Shown here one piece after another: positions 4,525 through 16,961 of a stretch of DNA of 64,000 bases. The notes under the pieces were generated by a model that was given only the letters and a program-made list of their open reading frames with translations, searched no databases and was not told the origin of the DNA. A program made the translations under genes and the position numbers. Position 1 is the stretch's first letter. Each line of letters starts with the position of its first letter. Source of the stretch: Ceraceosorus guamensis (lineage: Eukaryota > Basidiomycota > Exobasidiomycetes > Ceraceosorales > Ceraceosoraceae); assembly GCF_003144195.1 (NCBI RefSeq), contig NW_020290016.1, forward strand, positions 62,001-126,000, written 5' to 3'.

Positions 4525-7480
4525 CTCATCGTCGCCGACCTCCCTGCGATGTGGACGCCTTAGTGAAGGATAAACAAGACGAAATCTGACCAAGAGGGCG
4601 CAACGCTATCGAGGCAGGAGAGTTGTGAGTGCGTACGAGAAGAGAAAGGTTCCCTTGTCGTTTGGGCACTGTTCGCCCTGTCCACGCCAGAACCATATTC
4701 ACATTAGACAAGGGCCGATTACGGCAAAAAGTCGAAGCAAGCAAAACAAAGGTCACGTGACGGTCTTTTTTGCACCTGAGTTGCGCCGCGTTACCGCGCG
4801 GCCGTCATGAGTAGGCCGTCTTTTCAGCCCGCGCGAAGATTTCTCTATGGCTCTTCTCTTTCCACCAACAACGCCCCCCCCCCATGCTGCCCCAGGCATT
4901 GACCATCCACCAGCGGTGTCTGACAGGCAGCGAGCAGTCGTTCGCGTACAGCTCATGAACGGGGTGGCGCTAGAACAAGCGACCAATCCGTTCCTCCTTT
5001 TCCAACTTTCAAGCACCTCGTTCAGGCGCGCTCTACGCGCGGGGCTCTTAATTGGTCCTGCTGCACTTGGGGCCGCGTTTGGGATGAGGTGTGGGAAAGG
5101 GAGGGACCATGGTTAGGTTCTCGCTGGGGACGCTGGGCAGCGCGACGCTCAAATCTCATCCACGACGTCGTGCAATATCAGCTCCCCAACACACCCGTTA
5201 CTGGACACTCGGGATTGTACCCGATAGAAGCATCTTGAACAACATTCTTCTAGACGATCGAGAGTTCGCTTGAATCGAGAGTCCACTCGCGATCACGACT
5301 TGAAGACTCTGGTATCAGTTGCGACGAGCGCGGAAAGTGCAAGTTCAGTGAAGAGTACTCGTAATCATGATGGCTATGTAATTCCTAGCATGTATACGTT
5401 GCAGGTGCGGCAACAGTTGTGATGGATCAAGATGCGATCGAGCTGCGCATCAGCTCGGATGTTTGTCGGTCCTCAGCTCCTACCATATAGCGCTGTCCCG
5501 CTACCAGGAGGGTGGCGATGTGAGCACTCATAGCAGCGCGGAGTCTCCTTGCGCCTTGCCACGTATCTTGTCCTTGCTGACAAGGCCGAATTCGCGACGT
5601 TTTGAGACTCAAGAAGATTGTATATCTGCAATCGATGCGAGTCCAGCCCACGCGAACAGCCACGCTCGACTCGAGTCGCGATCGAGTCTCGATCGTGGCA
5701 GCCCCTTTGCGTGAGACCGATAAATGTGAGATCCGAGTCGCACTTGTCGCGGTCGTTCAGAGACTGAGGGCTCGATCCCTTATCTCACCCATGATAGCAG
5801 CATCATGGAGCAAGTCTTGTCAAGCATCAAGATCATAATTACCAGCAGTCAAGTGTCATGGGGTACGTGTCTCCCTGAGACGAGGGATGGTGCCTGCACC
5901 ACGCAGATATGAAATTTGAATGAGTGAATGATGGGTCATGATCGATTGTTGCGACGAAGCTGGCTGAGCGGCAGCAATAACAAGATAGCACCGACCCTTG
6001 TGGCTGAATACGCGCACACCTTGGGTGCAAGCTTCATCATGCACTCGATCGTGAATGCAAGCGAGCTCTTTGCAGAGTCTTGACGAGCAGCCGAGCAGAC
6101 CGGGTCATGCGCAGATGCTTCCTCTGCCGACGTCGTCCGGGAGCATTTTTCCATATGCGATAAGCTCCCCAAGCGACTCGCTGATCTCCATCGTGAAGTC
6201 AAATAGCTATAGACTCGTCAGTTTTGCAGCCTCGTCCCGCTGCATGCCGGCCGGCACCCGACGTGCGATGCCCGCACACTTTGTGCTGACTATAGCTGCG
6301 CCAAGCTACATAGGTCGTCGTCAATGATGCTGCGTGGCGGACCTGATGAACGCTCAAATCCATCTGTCGACGCTCCCCGCCGTGGGTTGAGACATGCAGG
6401 CACCCACATTGCGGCCATTCGTTCCAATGAAACGATCTCGGTGCCGCGTTGACGCCATACGAGGCAATTTCGAGTTCGTCATGATGACGCAAAAGTCGTA
6501 ATAAGCGACCAGCAGCAGCACTCGTCGTGACTGCGTATCCAGGCGGGCGTTTCTCCTCTGCGAGCGTGTACCGCCAATCATGAATCCGCGCACATGAATC
6601 ACCTTGCGACGACACACGGACACAACTTTCCGTGATCCACACCTTGGCACTCTGACTTGATGACGATTTGTCCTGCGTCACAGATGATAGCAAAGCAATC
6701 TAAAACCCCTCATTGCTCTCGGTCGGGACGCGTGGCTGACAGGGGGTGAGTTGTGAGTCAGCGTCGTGAGTGTGAGCTAGTCTGCTGCGTGGCGGCCAGG
6801 GCGATGATGCGAATGATCCATGACTCAAGATTCAAAAATTGAGAATCCCGGAGCGCGGATGCTCGATCGACTGCGATATGAAAGTGCATGGGCAAAATTG
6901 CATGGAGACGACGATGCAACATTCGTGACTCTCTGATGAGAGTCAAGTCTGAGAGTCGGATGAGTCGTGAGTCTGACAAGATGCGCCAAGCTCGACCTGA
7001 ATCTTGAGAAACACCAACGTCACGAATGGTCGAGAGCCTTTTTTTTTTTCTTCTTCTCCTTTTGTGTGACGATACCTTTTGCATGTATGCGATCCACATC
7101 ACGATCCCATGATGGTTGATGTCTGAGGACGTAAGCCGAGGTGCATGCGCTAGCGTCATTTTCTTCCGAAGCTTGGCCGAGCACCCGGCAGCGGGATCGA
7201 TCGAGCTTCGCGGCTCATCTCAATGCTGGCGGCTCTCATTGTGCCCTTCCCGCGGTCTGCTCCCGCGCTCGCCCCTTTGCTGGCTGTGCAGAATGACCAC
7301 AGCGTGCGGCACGCGACGCGCGCGCGCTGTGCGTTCTCCTGCGGCCGGGGATGTGCGCGCATTTAGCACCTCACCTGCCTATACACCGCTAGTGGCCATT
7401 GCGATGACGCTGCGTTTGGTGGGTTTGAGCCTGAACCAAAACATCGTTTTACCGCCTTGCCACAGGGCAATTTAGGCTCC

Positions 7481-7481
<1 letters not shown>

Positions 7482-7526
<45 letters not shown>
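7482..7526 (+). repeat. (CAG)15 microsatellite
   Basis: Uninterrupted CAG trinucleotide run of 45 nt. It is the exact reverse complement, at the same length, of the CTG run 310 nt downstream, so the two arms could pair as a 45-bp inverted repeat. It lies upstream of the sugar transporter, outside any gene I support. Confidence 0.95.
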
Positions 7527-7528
<2 letters not shown>

Positions 7529-7835
7529 TTGATGTTTCCGGTATCACCTTTGCGCAGAATTGGTGAGTCAGTGGGAACGAGGCGAAGCGCGCGAGAGCGA
7601 GAATCGCAGGCTATAGGTCGCATCTCGGCCGGCCATCTCATCCGTCTCATGCCTACCTCTTTCAATGTATAGAGACAGGTATACCCCACAAACTTCCTGG
7701 ACGGCACCAAACCTCTTTGGAGTTTGTCGAGAGCGCGCCCTGCGGCAGGTAGGTCTTGGCTCCAGCAGGAACACTCACGACTGCTGGTCGCTTTGTCTGC
7801 CTCTGCCGTTGCAATTTGTGGAGAAAGTGGGCTGG

Positions 7836-7836
<1 letters not shown>

Positions 7837-7881
<45 letters not shown>
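7837..7881 (+). repeat. (CTG)15 microsatellite
   Basis: Uninterrupted CTG run of 45 nt, lying about 330 nt before the transporter start codon. It is the partner of the (CAG)15 run in inverted orientation. Confidence 0.95.
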
Positions 7882-7882
<1 letters not shown>

Positions 7883-8022
7883 GAAAAGTCAGGGACGAGA
7901 CTAGCGAGGGCATCTGGGGTTTGCCCTGCATCTGCAGCATACAGCACACGGTCGATTACGGATGTGGACCATGAGCGTGCATGGTACGACTTTGAGAGCA
8001 GCAAGTCCCCCTCTTCGTGGCA

Positions 8023-8028
8023 TATAAA
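8023..8028 (+). promoter_or_regulatory. TATA-like element of the sugar transporter gene
   Basis: TATAAA (in the context CATATAAAGA) lies 41 nt before an upstream in-frame ATG (8064) and 191 nt before the ATG at 8214. If it is a functional TATA box, transcription would begin at or after 8064. That argues for the downstream start with its CACCATG context. Confidence 0.4.
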
Positions 8029-8213
8029 GAACGCACCCGGATGGACAAGGAAAATCCCCAGGCATGACCCACAATCAAGCCGCTTCCTGCTCTTACCCTC
8101 CCCCTTCCGCGTCAACGTCCAAAGCCCGCCGCTCCACTTCTTCGATCTCGAGTGACCGCAGTGAATTAGCCGACACTCATCCTTTGCTCGCTCCGACGAC
8201 GTCCAACTACACC

Positions 8214-10493
8214 ATGACTGGGGAGCTCGCGCCTTCCACTGGGCCCGTCGTGGGCGACCAGCGCAAGTTCAGCAAAGCGAATTTACGACCGCTGATCTTT
8301 TGCAGCATCGCTGTAGTAGGTGCGGTCCTCTACGGCTATGATGGGTGAGTGGGAACGGTGCACGCCCATGCTCATCGCCGTTCCGCTGAACTCCTATGTC
8401 GACTTTTCCAATTATTGCAGAACGTACTTCAGCGCCATTCTGGAGATGAGGAAGTTCAAAGAGGATTTTGGTACAGTCATCGACGACATGGGAACCATCG
8501 ACATTACGTCCTCTCAACGATCCCTTCTAGCCTCCATCGTCCAGGCGGGCGAGTTCTGCGGAGCGCTCGCAAGCGCACCCATCGGCGACTTTGCCGGACG
8601 CAAAGGTGGCTTCATCAGTGCTGGTAGTCTCGTTGCTTTGGGCACTGTGCTGCAGATGGTCCACACCGGCAGCATTCCCCTCATGACCGTCGGACGGCTC
8701 GTTCTCGGCGCAGGAGTCGGTGTCATTTCTGCGACGACTAGTCGTGAGTAGACGCGCCTCATCAATGCCCAAGTGTTGATGTTCATCTCAAGCATCATGA
8801 TCACTTTCACGCGCGTATCGCAGCCTACCTCAGCGAAATTGCTCCCGTCTCTCTTCGTGGCCCTGTCGTGTCCGCATGGCAGCTCATGCTTGCCATTGGT
8901 CAAGTCATCGGAGCCGGTGTTGGTCTAGGCACAAGGGACATGGACAATTGTGAGTGCTACGATGCGGCTGGAGCAAGGAGGTGTCACAGACGCTGACACA
9001 GCGTCCTTCGCTCGGACACTGCCTTCGCAGCCTGGTCTTACCGCATTCCGATCATTCTCAACTTGGCCATCGTGGCCATTCTCATGTTCGGCATCATCTT
9101 TGTCTGCCCAGAATCCCCTCGTTGGCTCATCAACAAGGGTCGCGACGAGCAAGCGCGAGCAGCTCTTCGACGTATCCACAAGGGCCAAGACGACCCCAAC
9201 AAGGTGGTGGACCTAGAATTCTCCAATTTCTACCAGGCGCGACAAGATGAGATCGCCTCCCAGGGTGAAGGTGGCTGGCTTACGCTGTTCAAGAGCAAGC
9301 ATGACCGGAGGCGTCTCGCAATGGTCATCGGCGTGCTCATCTGCCAGCAGATAAGGTGAGTCCGCTGCCACCTGAGCACCGTCAAGGACGCATCCAGGCA
9401 CTCACATCCCTTGCTGGCCTTCCGTCTCTTTCTGCGCGTTTGCCCCACAGCGGAGTGAGTGGCACGTGAAAAGCCTTTAAATCTTCCCTTAAAAGTTGTG
9501 CTGACCCCTTGTCTAATTCCGCTCTCAGATTCAAATCGTCTTCAGCTACTCCGCCGTCCTCATTGCCAGCTTATCGCCAAACTTTGACGGGATTCTAGTC
9601 AACATCATCTACACGATCGTCGAGGTGGTTGGAGTACTCGTCGCCTTCTTGCTGGTGGACCGTTTCGGCAGGCGACCACTGCTTTTATGGACCAGCGTTC
9701 CGATGGTGATCAGTCTCCTCATTGCCGCTGCTCTGGGATCCCTCAACGACCGCAGCGACAATCAGAACCGTGCCATCGCCGCCATGTTCGGCATCTTTGT
9801 CTTTGCCTTCAACAACGCTTGGTGAGTGTAGGTGCGCAAGTAAGTCTTTGACGCTTGCGACATCGGCTGACGTGCGACTCGCATCGCCACAGGGGTCCCT
9901 TGGCTTGGGTCTGCGCATCCGAGCTATCTACTGGTGGGCAGAAGCAAAAGATCATGGCTGTCGGCTCTGCATGCTTCTGGATCTCTGCTTGGGCAGTCAC
10001 CTTCACTCTGCCTTACCTCTTTGATGAAGGCGAGGCGAACCTTGGCTTCAGGGTCGGCTACATCTACTGTGAGTTCAATCCACCTCGCTCGAATAGCGCA
10101 TGGTGTATTCTGACGCGTGATCTTCTCACCTTGAAAACCTCCAGGCGTCGGTGGTCTTATTGCCGCGTGGTATGTCTGGACTTTCATCCCCGAGACGTGA
10201 GTAGTGCAGGGCATGCAAGCACACATCATTCGTCCTTGCCATGTACTTACCAGTACTATGTGTTTGCTCTTATCCACTTATCCCCTAGGTTCGGCCGCAC
10301 TTTGGAGGAGATTCAACAGATGATTCAGAATGACGTTCCCACCCGCAAGTGGACCTCTTACGTCACCCACTTTGAGGGCACGACTTGGAACAACGATGTG
10401 GCTCGCGATGGAACGAGCAGAAACTCTGCCGACAAGGCCGGAAGTCTGGACGTCAAGCCCGACCAGCAGGCAACTCAGGTCCTCGACGCCTGA
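8214..10493 (+). CDS. Major facilitator superfamily sugar (hexose) transporter
   Basis: Twelve-helix plasma-membrane sugar transporter of the fungal hexose family (Rco3/Hxt-like), moving hexoses, probably with protons. The nine exons are 8214-8344, 8421-8743, 8824-8949, 9031-9355, 9451-9454, 9529-9821, 9893-10068, 10145-10196 and 10289-10493, giving 544 aa. An upstream ATG at 8064 would add 50 hydrophilic residues. Family signatures are all present: GDFAGRKG after helix 2, PYLSEIAP, PESPRWL in the central loop, QQISGIQIVF at helix 7, DRFGRRPLLL after helix 8, and WTFIPET after helix 12. The fifth exon is only CGGA (4 nt); it supplies the SG of the conserved QQxSG motif and restores frame. The stop codon lies in the first copy of a 74-bp tandem duplication. 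Transport substrate cannot be told from sequence alone. Confidence 0.9.
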
Positions 10494-10582
10494 TTGTGCC
10501 AGAACAACAGGCCGGAAGTTTGGACGTCAAGCCCGACCAGCAGGCAACTCAGGTCCTCGACGCCTATTTGTGCCAGAACAAC
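10435..10582 (+). repeat. 74-bp tandem duplication across the transporter stop codon
   Basis: Two adjacent 74-bp copies (10435-10508 and 10509-10582) differ at only about three positions. Copy 1 encodes the transporter C-terminus (AGSLDVKPDQQATQVLDA) and its TGA stop; the matching place in copy 2 reads TAT. Because 74 is not a multiple of three, the copies cannot both be read in one frame, so copy 2 now lies in the 3' UTR. Confidence 0.93.
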
Positions 10583-10778
10583 ACGCACAAAAGTCCGGGG
10601 ATCACGGCTCACTCGCGGGACACTTCCATAGACGAGGCATGTACTTTATCACGACACGATCTTGCAAATCGACAGATGATTACGACACGGGCAGTGTGAA
10701 AGGCAGGGGCAGTTTCGAAAGGCGCTTGATCGACGAAACGAGAAGCGCGAGTCGAATGGTGCCATTCTCAAAGGACGG

Positions 10779-11933
10779 TCAGTTGTCGGGGATCTGGTTG
10801 ATATCAGACACGTGTTTAGGTTCACTGCCGTTGAGGCCTCCTCGAAGACGCCTGCTAGCAGCGTAGACGCCCTTGCGCAGTCTGTTGAGTGATCCGAGAG
10901 GCTTGTGAGCTTCCAACCCGTACCAGGGATTGATGATCAATTCCTGCTCGTGGAAGCGGACGCGATGAATGGCAAAGCTTTCTTGAGGAGGAATGTTGAG
11001 CTTTGCGACTGTCACGAAGGGGTACTTGTCCTCGTCCCATCCGTTCCTGTTGTCCTCTACTGCTTGCTCTTGAATGTTCTCCAACAGCTGAACTTGGAAA
11101 TCGTACGTCGCTTCGTTGGACTTGTAGTACTCTTGCAACCAGTCCCTGAGGATAGTGTTGCCCTTGTGCTCCGGCTTCACCTCCCTCTTGGCGGCTTCTT
11201 GAGCAGCAGAGCTTGGCACCAGACGATGCTTGGCGACATATTCCCCATGCCTAAAAGCCGATTGGCTGTACTGAACTTGAGAAACCAAATGGATGTTGGG
11301 TATATGATTACGAGAATCTTGCACTTCGTAATCGTCCCTCTTCTTTAGCTCCCCATCCAGCTCCTTTGCATCGTGTCCGTGCTCAAGTCTAAGAGCCAAA
11401 ATGTCTCTGCAGACTCGAGCAGTACCGAGCTCGATGGCTGGAGCGCTGTTGAACTCGAAATCTTGCGTCTTTGCATCCACGTCCCCCAGCTTGGCACCTT
11501 CCACGCCGAATATCTTGAGGCCTATTCCGCGTGGCTGTGGAACCCTATCGTCGATCAGGTCCGTCGTCTCGGTACTGTAACGCAGGTGCACCTGATACGT
11601 TCCGCTCTTGGAGAAGAAACCTTGCGCGTACTCTGAAGGGGGCGTCGAAGCATCTGGAGAAGGAACAGTGATGGTGCCTTTGACCACTCCTTGCGTCTTG
11701 ACGTGCGTACCGCTAAAGGCTCGGCGATGACACTCGAACACTCGGCGTTGAGATTCGTTGATCTGTTCCTCTACTTGCTTGATCAGATTCTCCTCCTCCG
11801 CAGTCGACTTTGAGTCCACTCCCTGCCGTTGGCGAGGAAAGAAGAGGAGGCGTCGGTGAGAGCGGATTAGAGCAAAGCCAGCAACACTCACCGGGGCATC
11901 CCATCTGATGAATCTGGCAGAGCTACTGGTCAT
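10779..11933 (-). CDS. Catalase-like haem-binding protein (y4iL/SrpA-like)
   Basis: Member of the small catalase-related family of haem proteins (y4iL/SrpA-like), often peroxidatic rather than true catalases. There are two exons, 11933-11892 and 11822-10779, giving 361 aa. The 69-nt intron has a GTGAGT donor and CAG acceptor and no stop in frame, so a plain ORF would include it. The N-terminal part has the family pattern RRVFECHRRAFSGTH, then KGTITV and the strand HLRYSTE; PQPRGIGLKIFGV matches the catalase-fold core. The distal part has QSAFRHGEYVAKHRLVP, the family counterpart of the haem-proximal region. No peroxisomal PTS1 tripeptide is seen at the end (PDN), so it is probably cytosolic. 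It is convergent with the sugar transporter. Family assignment is good; activity is not proven. Confidence 0.82.
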   Translation of the reverse strand: MTSSSARFIRWDAPVSVAGFALIRSHRRLLFFPRQRQGVDSKSTAEEENLIKQVEEQINESQRRVFECHRRAFSGTHVKTQGVVKGTITVPSPDASTPPSEYAQGFFSKSGTYQVHLRYSTETTDLIDDRVPQPRGIGLKIFGVEGAKLGDVDAKTQDFEFNSAPAIELGTARVCRDILALRLEHGHDAKELDGELKKRDDYEVQDSRNHIPNIHLVSQVQYSQSAFRHGEYVAKHRLVPSSAAQEAAKREVKPEHKGNTILRDWLQEYYKSNEATYDFQVQLLENIQEQAVEDNRNGWDEDKYPFVTVAKLNIPPQESFAIHRVRFHEQELIINPWYGLEAHKPLGSLNRLRKGVYAASRRLRGGLNGSEPKHVSDINQIPDN

Positions 11934-14900
11934 GCTTGGAGGAATGTCTTTTTGCGGTGCGGAGATCTCTCCGGTTCTGGAGATGATGCAGTAGTAGTAT
12001 CTCTTTCAGACCTCGGATGGCGGAAGAAGCTTGCGTGGATTTGTCGTGATTCAAGGCGTGTCACGATGAGGTAGATTCACGATTGCTGTTCCCCTCCCTC
12101 ATGACGACTCGCCTATTGGAGCGCTGCTGATGAATGCCGAACCGCTCGTTGGTCGGCGAACCCCACACGGAATCGGGATTCATTCAGTGATTATCCTCCG
12201 ATATATTCGACTCCCAAGCCACCAGGAAAAGAGAAGGAGCAGGACCCTGTGCTGCAGGTGTTTCGTATGCCTCCACATCGCGGGTCGGATTAGTTGTGAT
12301 TTTCGAGTCTACATCGGGGCAACCAGCACGAATCACGTGACCGACTCATACCGGCTTGCGTCTTGATTGTGACTGTTGTGATTGTTCAGGGCAAAATCAG
12401 CAAGCGTGGCAGTCAGAAACCGTGAGCTTAGCAAGGGTCATCAGCACCCAGTCAATCGAGTCCTCAATTGGTTCATTTAGAAAGCATTCGTGATTGTCTT
12501 TTCTTGCCAGGCGAAGTGTGCCTGAACGCATGACAGAGAGCAGATTTGGTGCAAGAACACACACTCTTGACCAAGTATCTACGTTCGCGCGGGAAGCGTC
12601 CCTCCAGCACGGTTCCCAAGCGAGTCCCGGAGGTAGAGAGAGGTTCGCGCAGGTCGCTCACCCACGACTGCCATTCATCTTGAGGATCGTGGAGTCGTGT
12701 CGCTCATCTTACGCCCAATACTCTCACTCTCCAATCAGCCGTGAATGCTGGATGGGACCATTTACGATTCGATCGCAGCTGTACTCCCACGACTGCACGC
12801 TGTTACCCCCGAGGCTCCATGTGGACAAAAGGCATCTATCATCAGCATCGCGCTTGGATTAGCATAGCTAGCTATCTTATAGCTTTGAAGGCACCGCTTG
12901 CAAACGCGTATACGTGTGGCTTGCGGCGAGCGCCGCGCTGCATGCGCCGCCCCGCCCGCCTAGCTGCATGCAGCGGCGGCGATCCTGCTGCAACATCAAG
13001 CCCGCGCGGTTGAGCCAGAGCACCACCAAATATATAAACAGCGCCGCGCTTCTGAAGACGCCGCGCGGCGGGCTTTTGTCCTCTCCGCGACACGATTGAC
13101 TGATACCAAGCAACAGCAGCAGCAGCGCGCGAGGGCAGGAGGTTGATGCATGCATGGATGGATCGAGGCGCGAACGCGCGCGTATCCCATCTAATGCATG
13201 CCTGAGTACGCGCGGTGCCTTGATTCGCTCCTTTCTCCGTGCGAACTTTATTGATGCTCGCGGCTTGGCTCGCTTATACAATCGCTGTTTTGTGACGGCT
13301 AGAGCTAGCTTGCTCTGCCTGGCATCTTGGCGAAGCGCCACTTTGGGAGGACAAAGAAGGCCTGAATCATGTTTCCCGGTCGTCCAGCCCCGGCTCCTTT
13401 ATTGAGCGCTCAGCCACTTTGCTTGTCGAGCGGACGCATCCGCAATGGTGCACGCAGGAATCGGACTGGCCAACAGCTTGTACGTATTGTGTCGCCGAGC
13501 GCCTCGCAAAGTTCCTCTACTGATGGCCCCGCGCGTAGCCGTCGAGGAATAGCTTGGAAGAGCTGCTCGAGCCTCGCATTCTCAACTTGTAGAAGAAAGG
13601 ACTGACGATTGACGACTCGCGACTGTTTGTCCCTTTGAATCTTTGCTGGGAGCGCCTCAACGCGTCAGCGGCCGGACGCTGCATGTTGCACGCACGGCGC
13701 TCCCTCCGACGCGCGCCCCCACCGCGTGACTTGCTCTCTCCGCGCAGCAGCCCTTCTCTGCGGAGCTTTCCTCTCTGCCGCGCTTTTGCTGAGCTGCATT
13801 CGATTCGCGCACTCTTGATTGCGAGCCCTCCGGCGGCGGGGGAGCTTGCAAACATAGCACGTCGTCACCACTCACTGTGCTTGTCTAGCGCATCGTTCGG
13901 CGCACCTCGACCAGGGTTTGGCGATCGGACAACGGGGAAGCGCCAAATACTGGACCGCGCGGCCTGTTACTCTGCCCACTGCGCTGAATAGACCAGTCAA
14001 GACTTGCTCGCGTTCCGGCATGCGACGCAAGATCATGCGCAAGCTATACTCGAGACTGCGTGATGGCGAAGGAGGTGAAGAGTCAAGCCACACGAGCATC
14101 GAGAACCGCGTGGTCTTGTGAGGTGTCAAGATTCATCCTCGCTGCTCGCATGCATGGACGGCATTGTCGAGGTGGATTCGAGCTGTGTCCCGATGCCCCC
14201 TTGCTTCGACCCCTCATCGTCATGGATTTGGCGCGGATGCTTCAAATATCCGCATGCACACCATCCAAAGGGTCGTCCATCGACTTTAGCGTCGATGTTT
14301 GCCTTTCGTAGCGTGTCTCTCCTCCCTCTCTCTCCTTCTTCGCTTGCTCTGCACAAGTCCAGCACCAGCGTTTGCAGGTGGAGCTGCGCAGCCAAGCATC
14401 TCCCACGCTGGAAAGCTTGCGCATGCTGCCTTGCAGCTTTTCATTGTGGCTTGCCACGAATCGCACCTCAAGTCGAACGTCGTGAGTATCAAACAGGCGT
14501 GCTGATGCGGTCGAATGGCTCTTTGTGGGCCTCGTGTGAGCACACCGGTCAATGTTGTGCCTGCAGCTCGATTGACCGTGCCTACATCTCTCCCATGTGA
14601 TGGAATCAACAGAGCTCCATTGCGGACGAGCCGCTTCTTGCGAGGCATCACACTCTGCCAAAGTTACGAAGGGCCTAGACGGCTGCTCAGCGCTTGGTCC
14701 CCTCGCTCGCTGCTCACTTGCCCGGTGCAATCACGGCAGCCAATCACCTGGAAGGCAGACTCGCATCTGCTCGCTCCACAATATCACAGCACGTTCAGCA
14801 ACAACGGCGATAATCATACAAGGCACATTGTCTCTCTATAATAGTCTGCAGTCTCTCGTCTAGTACCTTGCTCCGTCGCGGAGGTTCAAGACGTTCCAGC

Positions 14901-15021: not shown

Positions 15022-16961
15022 ATGCTCCATCAACGTGCTCGTGCGTGCGGCCTTTGGGTTTCACTCGGCCTACTTGCTTGCGTTTCCCGAGTCAGCACAT
15101 CACCGATTGCCCAGCTCGTTCGGCCCTCTCATGACACTAATGACCTCTCACACGTCGCTCTCGAGCGATCAACTTCCGAGACATCGTCCGCAAACATCCT
15201 CGACGCTCGCGACGACTGCTCCGATGGACCTCGAATATCCACCTCCATGGGACAAATCGCAGGGGCATCGGTAGCGGATGGCAGAGCCCAGCGCTTCACC
15301 TTGCCTTATGCTCAACCGCCTGTGGGATCTTTGCGCTTCGCAAATCCCCTAAACATCGTATCTTTTGGAACGGCGTCGTCCGTCTATGATGCTTCGAACC
15401 TTCCTCCACGATGCTACCAGTACGGAGAGGATGTGCGCGGTGGCACCGAGCCGTCGGAGGACTGCCTGTACTCGATCGTCTACAAGCCTACCAACGCAAA
15501 GCATGGCGACAAGCTTCCAGTATTGGTGTGTATATGCGTCCGCCTGGACTTTGTACGATGCTGCTGATCGCTTGCCTATATCTCCTCCCTCAGGTGTGGG
15601 TCCACGGCGGTAGTGGCATTGGTGGCGGCGCTACCAACGCCGGTCTGGACGGTTCCAACCTTGCCACGAGCCGAAATGTGATCGTCGTCGTTCTTCAGTA
15701 CCGTCTCGGCCTCTTTGGCTGGCTTCAAACCTCGGCATTGGTTGACGAAAGCAACGGTGGAGCACCAAACGGCACCAAGGTCTCCGGAAACATGGCTTTC
15801 CGAGACGTAGTCTCTGCCCTGCAACAACTTCGATCGGTTGCGCGCTCCTTCGGCGGAGATCCCAAGCTGGTGACGCTTATTGGACAAAGCAGCGGTGCTC
15901 AGCTCATTCGCTCGCTGCTAACTTTGCCCGTCGCTGCTCCACTTTTCCAACGCGCCATTCTCATTTCGGACACGGAGGACTACGGGCCAGCGACTCAAGC
16001 TCAAGCCAACACACTCGGAGACTACGCTCTCAAAGCTCTTGGCTGCACCGATCTGGCTTGTGCACGTGCTAAAGACAAGGATGACATTCTCAATGTCAGC
16101 TACGACACCTACTCAACTGTCCCTTTGGCCGACGGCTCAATCGCGGGCGGGACACCATGGAGACCCACGCTCGGCAAGTATCTCCCAAGCGGTATCGAGG
16201 TGGGCAAAGGCTTTCCCAAGCCGGTCATCCTCAGCACCGTGGCCAACGAAGCAGGCACTGTGGCTGGCAGCCTATTTGAACCGTCCACCCTCAACCCGGG
16301 ACAAAATCTGAGCGCGCAAGGCTCCATCATTACTCTGCGACAAGGCAATGCGCCTCTTCCGATCGGACAAGCTTTGAACTTGATCTTCAACCAGAACCGA
16401 GGTGTGCTGGCAACCAACGTTGCAGCATATTCTCCTGGTAGTCCGAGCAGCTTCCGCGTTCCATCGGCTGGTGCGGATGACGCTCCGCGCAAGCTCTTCG
16501 AAGAGATTGCGACGGATGGATTGTGGAGATGCGCCACCCAACGCAACGCTCGCACCCTGGCTTCCAACAGTCACGGCAAAGGCATCTGGCTGGAGCAGCG
16601 CAACATTGGCGCTCGCTACCCGTCCAATGAGGGCGTCGACTACTGCGAAGCTGCAGGCACCGTCTGTCACGAGGATGACATTTACCTCATCTTTGGTACC
16701 ACGCCTTCGCCTACTGATGCGCAACAGAAAGCCAGCTCAGAGATTCAGGCCAGGTACTCGGCGTTTGCACGGACCGGCAACCCGAATGTCATTGGCAAGA
16801 CTATATGGACGCAGGTGGGAGACGGCAATGATATCGATCTGCTCGTCTACGATGACCAGGGCAACTCTAGCGCCCAAAAAGGCCAGAGAACGAGCGCTTG
16901 CAACAGCAACGACGCTTGGGGCTCTAGAGTCAAATTTGACTGGCAGATCTACTCGTACTGA
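15022..16961 (+). CDS. Secreted type-B carboxylesterase/lipase
   Basis: Extracellular alpha/beta hydrolase of the type-B carboxylesterase family (fungal lipase/cholinesterase group), which hydrolyses ester bonds. Two exons, 15022-15525 and 15594-16961, are joined across a 68-nt intron, giving 623 aa. Residues 1-27 are a signal peptide (ACGLWVSLGLLACVSRVSTS). The family landmarks follow: PYAQPPVGSLRF near residue 100, EDCLYSIVYKP, VWVHGGSGIGGG as the oxyanion region, FRDVVSALQQL, and GQSSGAQ around residue 265 as the nucleophile elbow (GxSxG with Ser where most family members have Glu-Ser-Ala). The acid is probably the Glu in VANEAGT, and the catalytic His is in CHEDDIYLIF near the C-terminus. 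The gene converges with the CREG-like gene. Natural substrate is unknown. Confidence 0.9.

Follow-up and report, generated by a model that had tools for sequence, protein, structure and literature searches.

The transporter locus

The window analysed here, which means the whole stretch of 64,000 nucleotides of Ceraceosorus guamensis DNA, carries on its + strand a gene whose product is a sugar porter by family match and a predicted sugar transporter. A model assembled from GT-AG introns comprises nine coding exons and eight introns. Coding exons 1 to 4 lie at 8214-8344, 8421-8743, 8824-8949 and 9031-9355, coding exons 6 to 9 lie at 9529-9821, 9893-10068, 10145-10196 and 10289-10493 (the last including the stop codon), and the candidate microexon, coding exon 5, consists of the four nucleotides CGGA at 9451-9454. 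All eight introns begin with GTGAGT, and their lengths range from 71 to 95 nt. The position of the start is uncertain: an in-frame ATG at 8064, an alternative to the one at 8214, would add 50 codons and give a predicted protein of 594 aa with a Ser/Thr-rich head.

With the start at 8214, the protein matches Pfam PF00083 (Sugar_tr) at 344.1 bits (cut-off 22.3), over profile positions 2-451 of 452. The best 5 of 50 solved-structure matches are Sugar transport protein 10 and a D-xylose transporter, which we take to be STP10 and XylE, respectively. In these five matches, QQISGIQ of the transporter aligns with QQITGIN (STP10) and QQFVGIN (XylE); the QQxxGI motif that marks the beginning of a sugar porter's second half is present as QQISGIQ, and the QQISGI stretch presumably belongs to transmembrane helix 7. 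A tblastn search of the window (E up to 1) returned only the gene's own exons and a 74-bp repeat, with no second copy of the transporter, and no relatives of the protein were found in the viral contigs or the prokaryote contigs scanned with it. The window contains no Rfam match at the gathering score.

Nearby genes encode a clathrin heavy chain, an RSN1_7TM/PHM7_cyt protein and a GCP_C_terminal protein; these neighbours and the shortness of the introns point to a fungus. Upstream of the transporter there are two perfect triplet arrays, equally long and opposite in orientation, (CAG)15.3 at 7482-7527 and (CTG)15.3 at 7837-7882, both of which are translated, as poly-Ala and poly-Gln, by a minus-strand open reading frame at 7363-8268. 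The 74-bp repeat is a tandem duplication at 10435-10583 (2.0 copies, 96% match) that lies across the transporter stop codon (10491-10493); its second copy has TAT where TGA stood, which leaves the copied tail without a stop. Adjoining the transporter is a minus-strand frame of 408 codons (10779-12005) with no Pfam match at E 0.001. Farther along the + strand, a stop-to-stop frame of 523 codons (15390-16961) matches carboxylesterase (COesterase) from profile position 107 only, so that the first part of that gene is either upstream or missing.

Four probable coding nucleotides between two introns

On the + strand, the left boundary reads CAGCAGATAAG and then GTGAGT at 9356; coding exon 4 ends in CAG CAG ATA AG, after codon position 2. 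The following acceptor, the four nucleotides and the next donor (CCCCACAG, CGGA and GTGAGT) together occupy 9443-9460, and the right boundary runs from this GTGAGT at 9455 to CTCTCAG, after which ATTCAAATC begins at 9529. The sequence itself confirms what the first-pass annotation had noticed, namely that CGGA alone lies between an acceptor and a GTGAGT donor. CGGA completes the Ser302 codon with its third base and encodes Gly303 in full, and coding exon 6 continues with ATT CAA ATC, of which ATT CAA encodes Ile304 and Gln305. The flanking introns are intron 4 (9356-9450, 95 nt, phase 2, GTGAGT...CCCCACAG) and intron 5 (9455-9528, 74 nt, phase 0, GTGAGT...CTCTCAG). The gap of 173 nt between coding exons 4 and 6 is approximately twice as long as the six other introns of the gene (71-92 nt), and it can be divided into one GTGAGT intron of 95 nt and another of 74 nt.

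The consequences for the reading frame are also as originally proposed. When CGGA is included, the gene model translates to an intact protein of 544 aa, with the stop ending at 10493. When it is skipped, translation ends after 324 aa at a stop at 9598, and the Sugar_tr score of the product is 206.8 bits.

Splice signals and chance

Splice sites were scored with a donor/acceptor matrix trained on the gene's six other introns. Donors 9455 and 9356 rank first and second among the 42 GT dinucleotides in 9031-9821. Acceptor 9450 is the best of nine AG dinucleotides in 9397-9580 and the sixth of 54 over 9000-10000, where two of the training acceptors and three exonic sites score higher. The acceptor of intron 5, at 9528, is modest, with a score of 1.79, which places it only fourth of the nine and outside the best 12 of the 54. 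By the same matrix, the acceptors at 9545 and 9569, which are in frame with the donor at 9356, score 0.82 and 2.42, respectively, and acceptor 9397 scores 2.01; the six training acceptors, each scored with itself left out, reach down to 0.5, and the matrix thus separates acceptors poorly. Introns 4 and 5 each carry their own GTGAGT, branch-like motif and YAG. The motif in intron 5 is CTGAC, 24 nt before the intron end, which occurs in four of the eight introns of the transporter; that in intron 4 is CTCAC, 46 nt before the intron end, which we take to be a weaker branch-like motif than CTGAC. An origin of the arrangement by duplication of a neighbouring intron was considered and rejected, as blastn (E up to 0.1, introns with 30-nt flanks) gave no intron-intron matches; one 19-nt match was found elsewhere in the window.

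The bare arrangement proves nothing, because YAG-N4-GTGAGT is not rare: it occurs three times in the window, always on the + strand, where 1.08 occurrences are expected on both strands. The narrower pattern CAG-YGGN-GTGAGT occurs once, against 0.03 expected. As a further control, the 173-nt gap was subjected to 20,000 dinucleotide shuffles with its GTGAGT start and AG end fixed. An in-frame AG..GT exon of 1-13 nt appeared in 13,062 of these, which means that such a pair alone is no evidence. An in-frame exon of this size with a GTRAGT donor was present in 97 of the 20,000, a 4-nt exon coding for SG in 95, and a 4-nt exon that codes for SG and also has a GTRAGT donor in one. The combination of length, SG and GTRAGT donor is far beyond chance. 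Within the actual gap, if the outer sites stay as they are and no intron is shorter than 40 nt, three of 11 AG..GT pairs keep the frame, and the Gly is restored by CGGA only.

Conservation of the glycine

In the alignment with prokaryotic Sugar_tr matches, all 18 loci scoring above 340 bits, a cut that was set after most of the residues were already known, have Gly in the Gly303 column. These 18 are every row above 340 bits in two Sugar_tr listings; seven of them (L083 to L089) were picked partly by motif, being the same genes that led to their genomes (the positions overlap), and the other 11, which were not reached via the QQxxGI motif, all have Gly. When lower-scoring loci are included, Gly is present in 22 of 27, and the remaining five, with lower scores, have a gap. 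The 27 loci derive from Pfam profile matches, comprising 20 of the 30 loci of the first listing, five of the 29 new loci of the second and two rows of the second without a locus; a set of 80 loci chosen partly by the QQxxGI motif was left out of the count. Gly also stands at the same column in XylE and STP10.

It had been claimed that CGGA completes a strictly conserved QQxSG(I/N) motif. This holds for the Gly; in contrast, the 18 strong matches have S, T, V, C or Q in the Ser302 column, and Ile304 also varies. The residue that CGGA would supply whole is therefore the one that is conserved in the sugar-porter QQxxGI motif, and the serine is not strictly conserved.

Interpretation and alternatives

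The sequence, the reading frame, the splice-site consensus and the conservation of the glycine are direct observations. They make it very probable that the four nucleotides CGGA form an internal exon in a nuclear gene for a sugar porter, located between two short U2-type introns. For introns under 100 nt, recognition across the intron is expected, and introns 4 (phase 2, 95 nt) and 5 (phase 0, 74 nt) would each be recognised in this way (intron definition). Because each intron has complete signals of its own, the 4-nt exon would not need to be recognised across itself. Reading the gap as a stwintron (nested twin intron) was rejected: neither intron disrupts the splice elements of its neighbour, and four coding nucleotides lie between them, so that introns 4 and 5 could be removed in either order. 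Inclusion of CGGA would restore both the frame and the conserved Gly of QQxxGI, and skipping would truncate the protein. We infer that both introns are removed in vivo by intron definition, in whichever order, and that the exon is most likely constitutive.

Several other readings of the gap must be weighed against a constitutive 4-nt exon. One is a single longer intron from donor 9356 to acceptor 9545 (or 9569), which would leave CGGA intronic and make the protein 7 (or 15) residues shorter, the missing residues coming from the QQxxGI stretch and the part directly behind it. A scan of single-intron models, with donors in 9250-9499, acceptors no farther than 9650 and intron lengths of 40-300 nt, gave 25 in-frame donor-acceptor pairs, none with CGGA in the product, and only two of them have a consensus donor. 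These two use the acceptors 9545 and 9569, which are absent from the first-pass annotation; they yield proteins of 537 and 529 aa, and acceptor 9569 even scores slightly above 9528 (2.42 vs. 1.79). However, either intron removes GIQIVFS or more, including the Gly present in all 18 strong relatives, and the earlier statement that no nearby site provides both frame and motif is thereby upheld. Moreover, the 537-aa form scores 322.9 bits against Sugar_tr, 21.2 bits lower than the 544-aa form, the intron would measure 190 or 214 nt compared with 71-92 nt in the other six, and CGGA would lie between its consensus sites by a coincidence of the kind seen in one of 20,000 shuffles. This reading appears very unlikely. 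Still less credible is the use of another tiny exon in the gap. Two candidates, 9456-9465 (10 nt) and 9398-9437 (40 nt), are indeed open in frame, but they encode QQISEWHIQ and QQIRHSHPLLAFRLFLRIQ, respectively, with no Gly at its place, and their donors, GTGAAA and GTTTGC, are non-consensus; the acceptor of 9456-9465 scores 1.39 and that of 9398-9437, at 9397, scores 2.01. An error in the sequence or assembly, such that the true genome has one intron and four extra exon bases at one junction, is conceivable in that a single sequence is at hand, and it has barely any probability in our estimation. Insertion of one nucleotide at the junction keeps the frame but leaves the Gly absent, so the loss of four coding bases would be needed to explain the case by an assembly error. 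Only 8 of the 256 possible 4-mers yield QQI[ST]GI at the junction, and this reading would also require that a coding 4-mer flanked by consensus splice sites had arisen by accident within the intron.

A further alternative overlaps with the preferred explanation: the microexon may be real but facultative, with skipping or the use of alternative acceptors serving as an off-switch for the transporter. Skipping does lead to an early stop (324 aa), acceptor 9528 is no stronger than 9569, and a glucose-responsive microexon of 20 nt has been described in Trichoderma Xlr2 (PMC11121469). On the other hand, no sign of regulation stood out on inspection of the sequence, and a constitutive exon of 4 bp is known from MPC1 (PMC9929638); facultative use seems unlikely, if less so than the readings discussed above. 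In its more specific form, as a metabolic splicing switch in which conditional skipping, or acceptor 9545 or 9569, shuts off sugar uptake post-transcriptionally, the idea is speculative and rather improbable; the products of such a switch may be a truncated or an internally shortened transporter.

If the gene is spliced as predicted, with CGGA as an exon, automatic annotation probably breaks it, introducing a frameshift or an internal deletion into the transporter. The gene would also be a natural test case for how short introns keep an exon that is far below exon-definition size.

Comparison with known microexons

Exons of 1-8 nt have been published, including a 1-nt exon in Fusarium and a 4-bp exon in human MPC1, and several of these precedents are backed by transcripts (PMC12940212, PMC4674806, PMC9929638). 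The earlier view that an exon of four nucleotides is near the limit of splicing is contradicted by the 1-nt exons of Arabidopsis and Fusarium (PMC4674806, PMC12940212), and CGGA leaves the known lower limit of exon size (1 nt) unchanged. The predicted 4-nt exon is a well-supported candidate for a rare gene structure of an already known kind.

In plants, conserved microexons of 1-15 nt include a 4-nt cluster, with RECQ3 (PMC8831610), and coding exons of 1 nt are present in APC11 of Arabidopsis (PMC4674806) and in VPS55, where GTRAGT donors are found, as here (PMC8831610, PMC4674806). Such exons are often absent from annotations; they have support from RNA and from conservation in many species (PMC8831610, PMC4674806), whereas CGGA is predicted from one sequence. 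The MPC1 exon is similar to CGGA in being exactly 4 nt long, not a multiple of three, and located in a transporter gene (PMC9929638). It is included constitutively, which for CGGA we infer, and it is flanked by introns of kilobase size and its retention is attributed to exon definition via flanking sequences (PMC9929638), whereas both introns are shorter than 100 nt in the sugar porter. With regard to intron size, a study on C. elegans PRP-40 argued that intron definition can retain exons whose small size does not permit exon definition, and that a short flanking intron lessens the need for help (PMC8378409).

Among fungi, a partial search of the open-licence literature, performed mostly by listings, found no 4-nt exon. 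Mentions of 'microexon' in two Cryptococcus papers concern only a read-mapping option, and in two fungal papers that matched a search for tiny exons, the phrase referred to exons averaging 476.4 bp, or 462 bp. Fungal stwintrons likewise consist of two short introns that fill one apparent long gap. However, in stwintrons one intron sits within a splice element of the other, whereas the elements are intact here and four coding bases lie between the introns; a term search of the available text of a stwintron paper (PMC5639578) returned no mention of microexons. The P450 genes of Phanerochaete chrysosporium, which is also a basidiomycete, have small introns, and their exons can be as short as 6 bp (PMC1184071); among them is an 8-nt exon inside a conserved motif (PMC1184071; PMC12940212). 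The shortest of these exons, at 6 bp, belongs to P450 genes (PMC1184071), compared with 4 nt in a sugar porter here.

A close parallel is with the Fusarium P450 CYP621A, in which a 1-nt exon forms the middle base of a Gly codon in a conserved motif and is found in transcript reads (PMC12940212). That exon, a single nucleotide in a P450 as opposed to four in a sugar porter, was missed by gene models, is kept in 20 orthologues and has been seen in SRA reads (PMC12940212), whereas CGGA is a prediction from the sequence. Given the Fusarium report, the predicted CGGA exon is unsurprising, and its value is that of an annotation warning and a test case. If spliced as predicted, it would be a further fungal ultra-short exon that completes a Gly codon in a conserved motif, with introns of less than 100 nt each. 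The Fusarium exon and the predicted one are both fungal, ultra-short, a source of bases for such a codon and needed for the frame (PMC12940212), and in both genes an over-long gap served as a hint, exceeding double the normal size of an intron in CYP621A (PMC12940212) and measuring 173 nt in the sugar porter.
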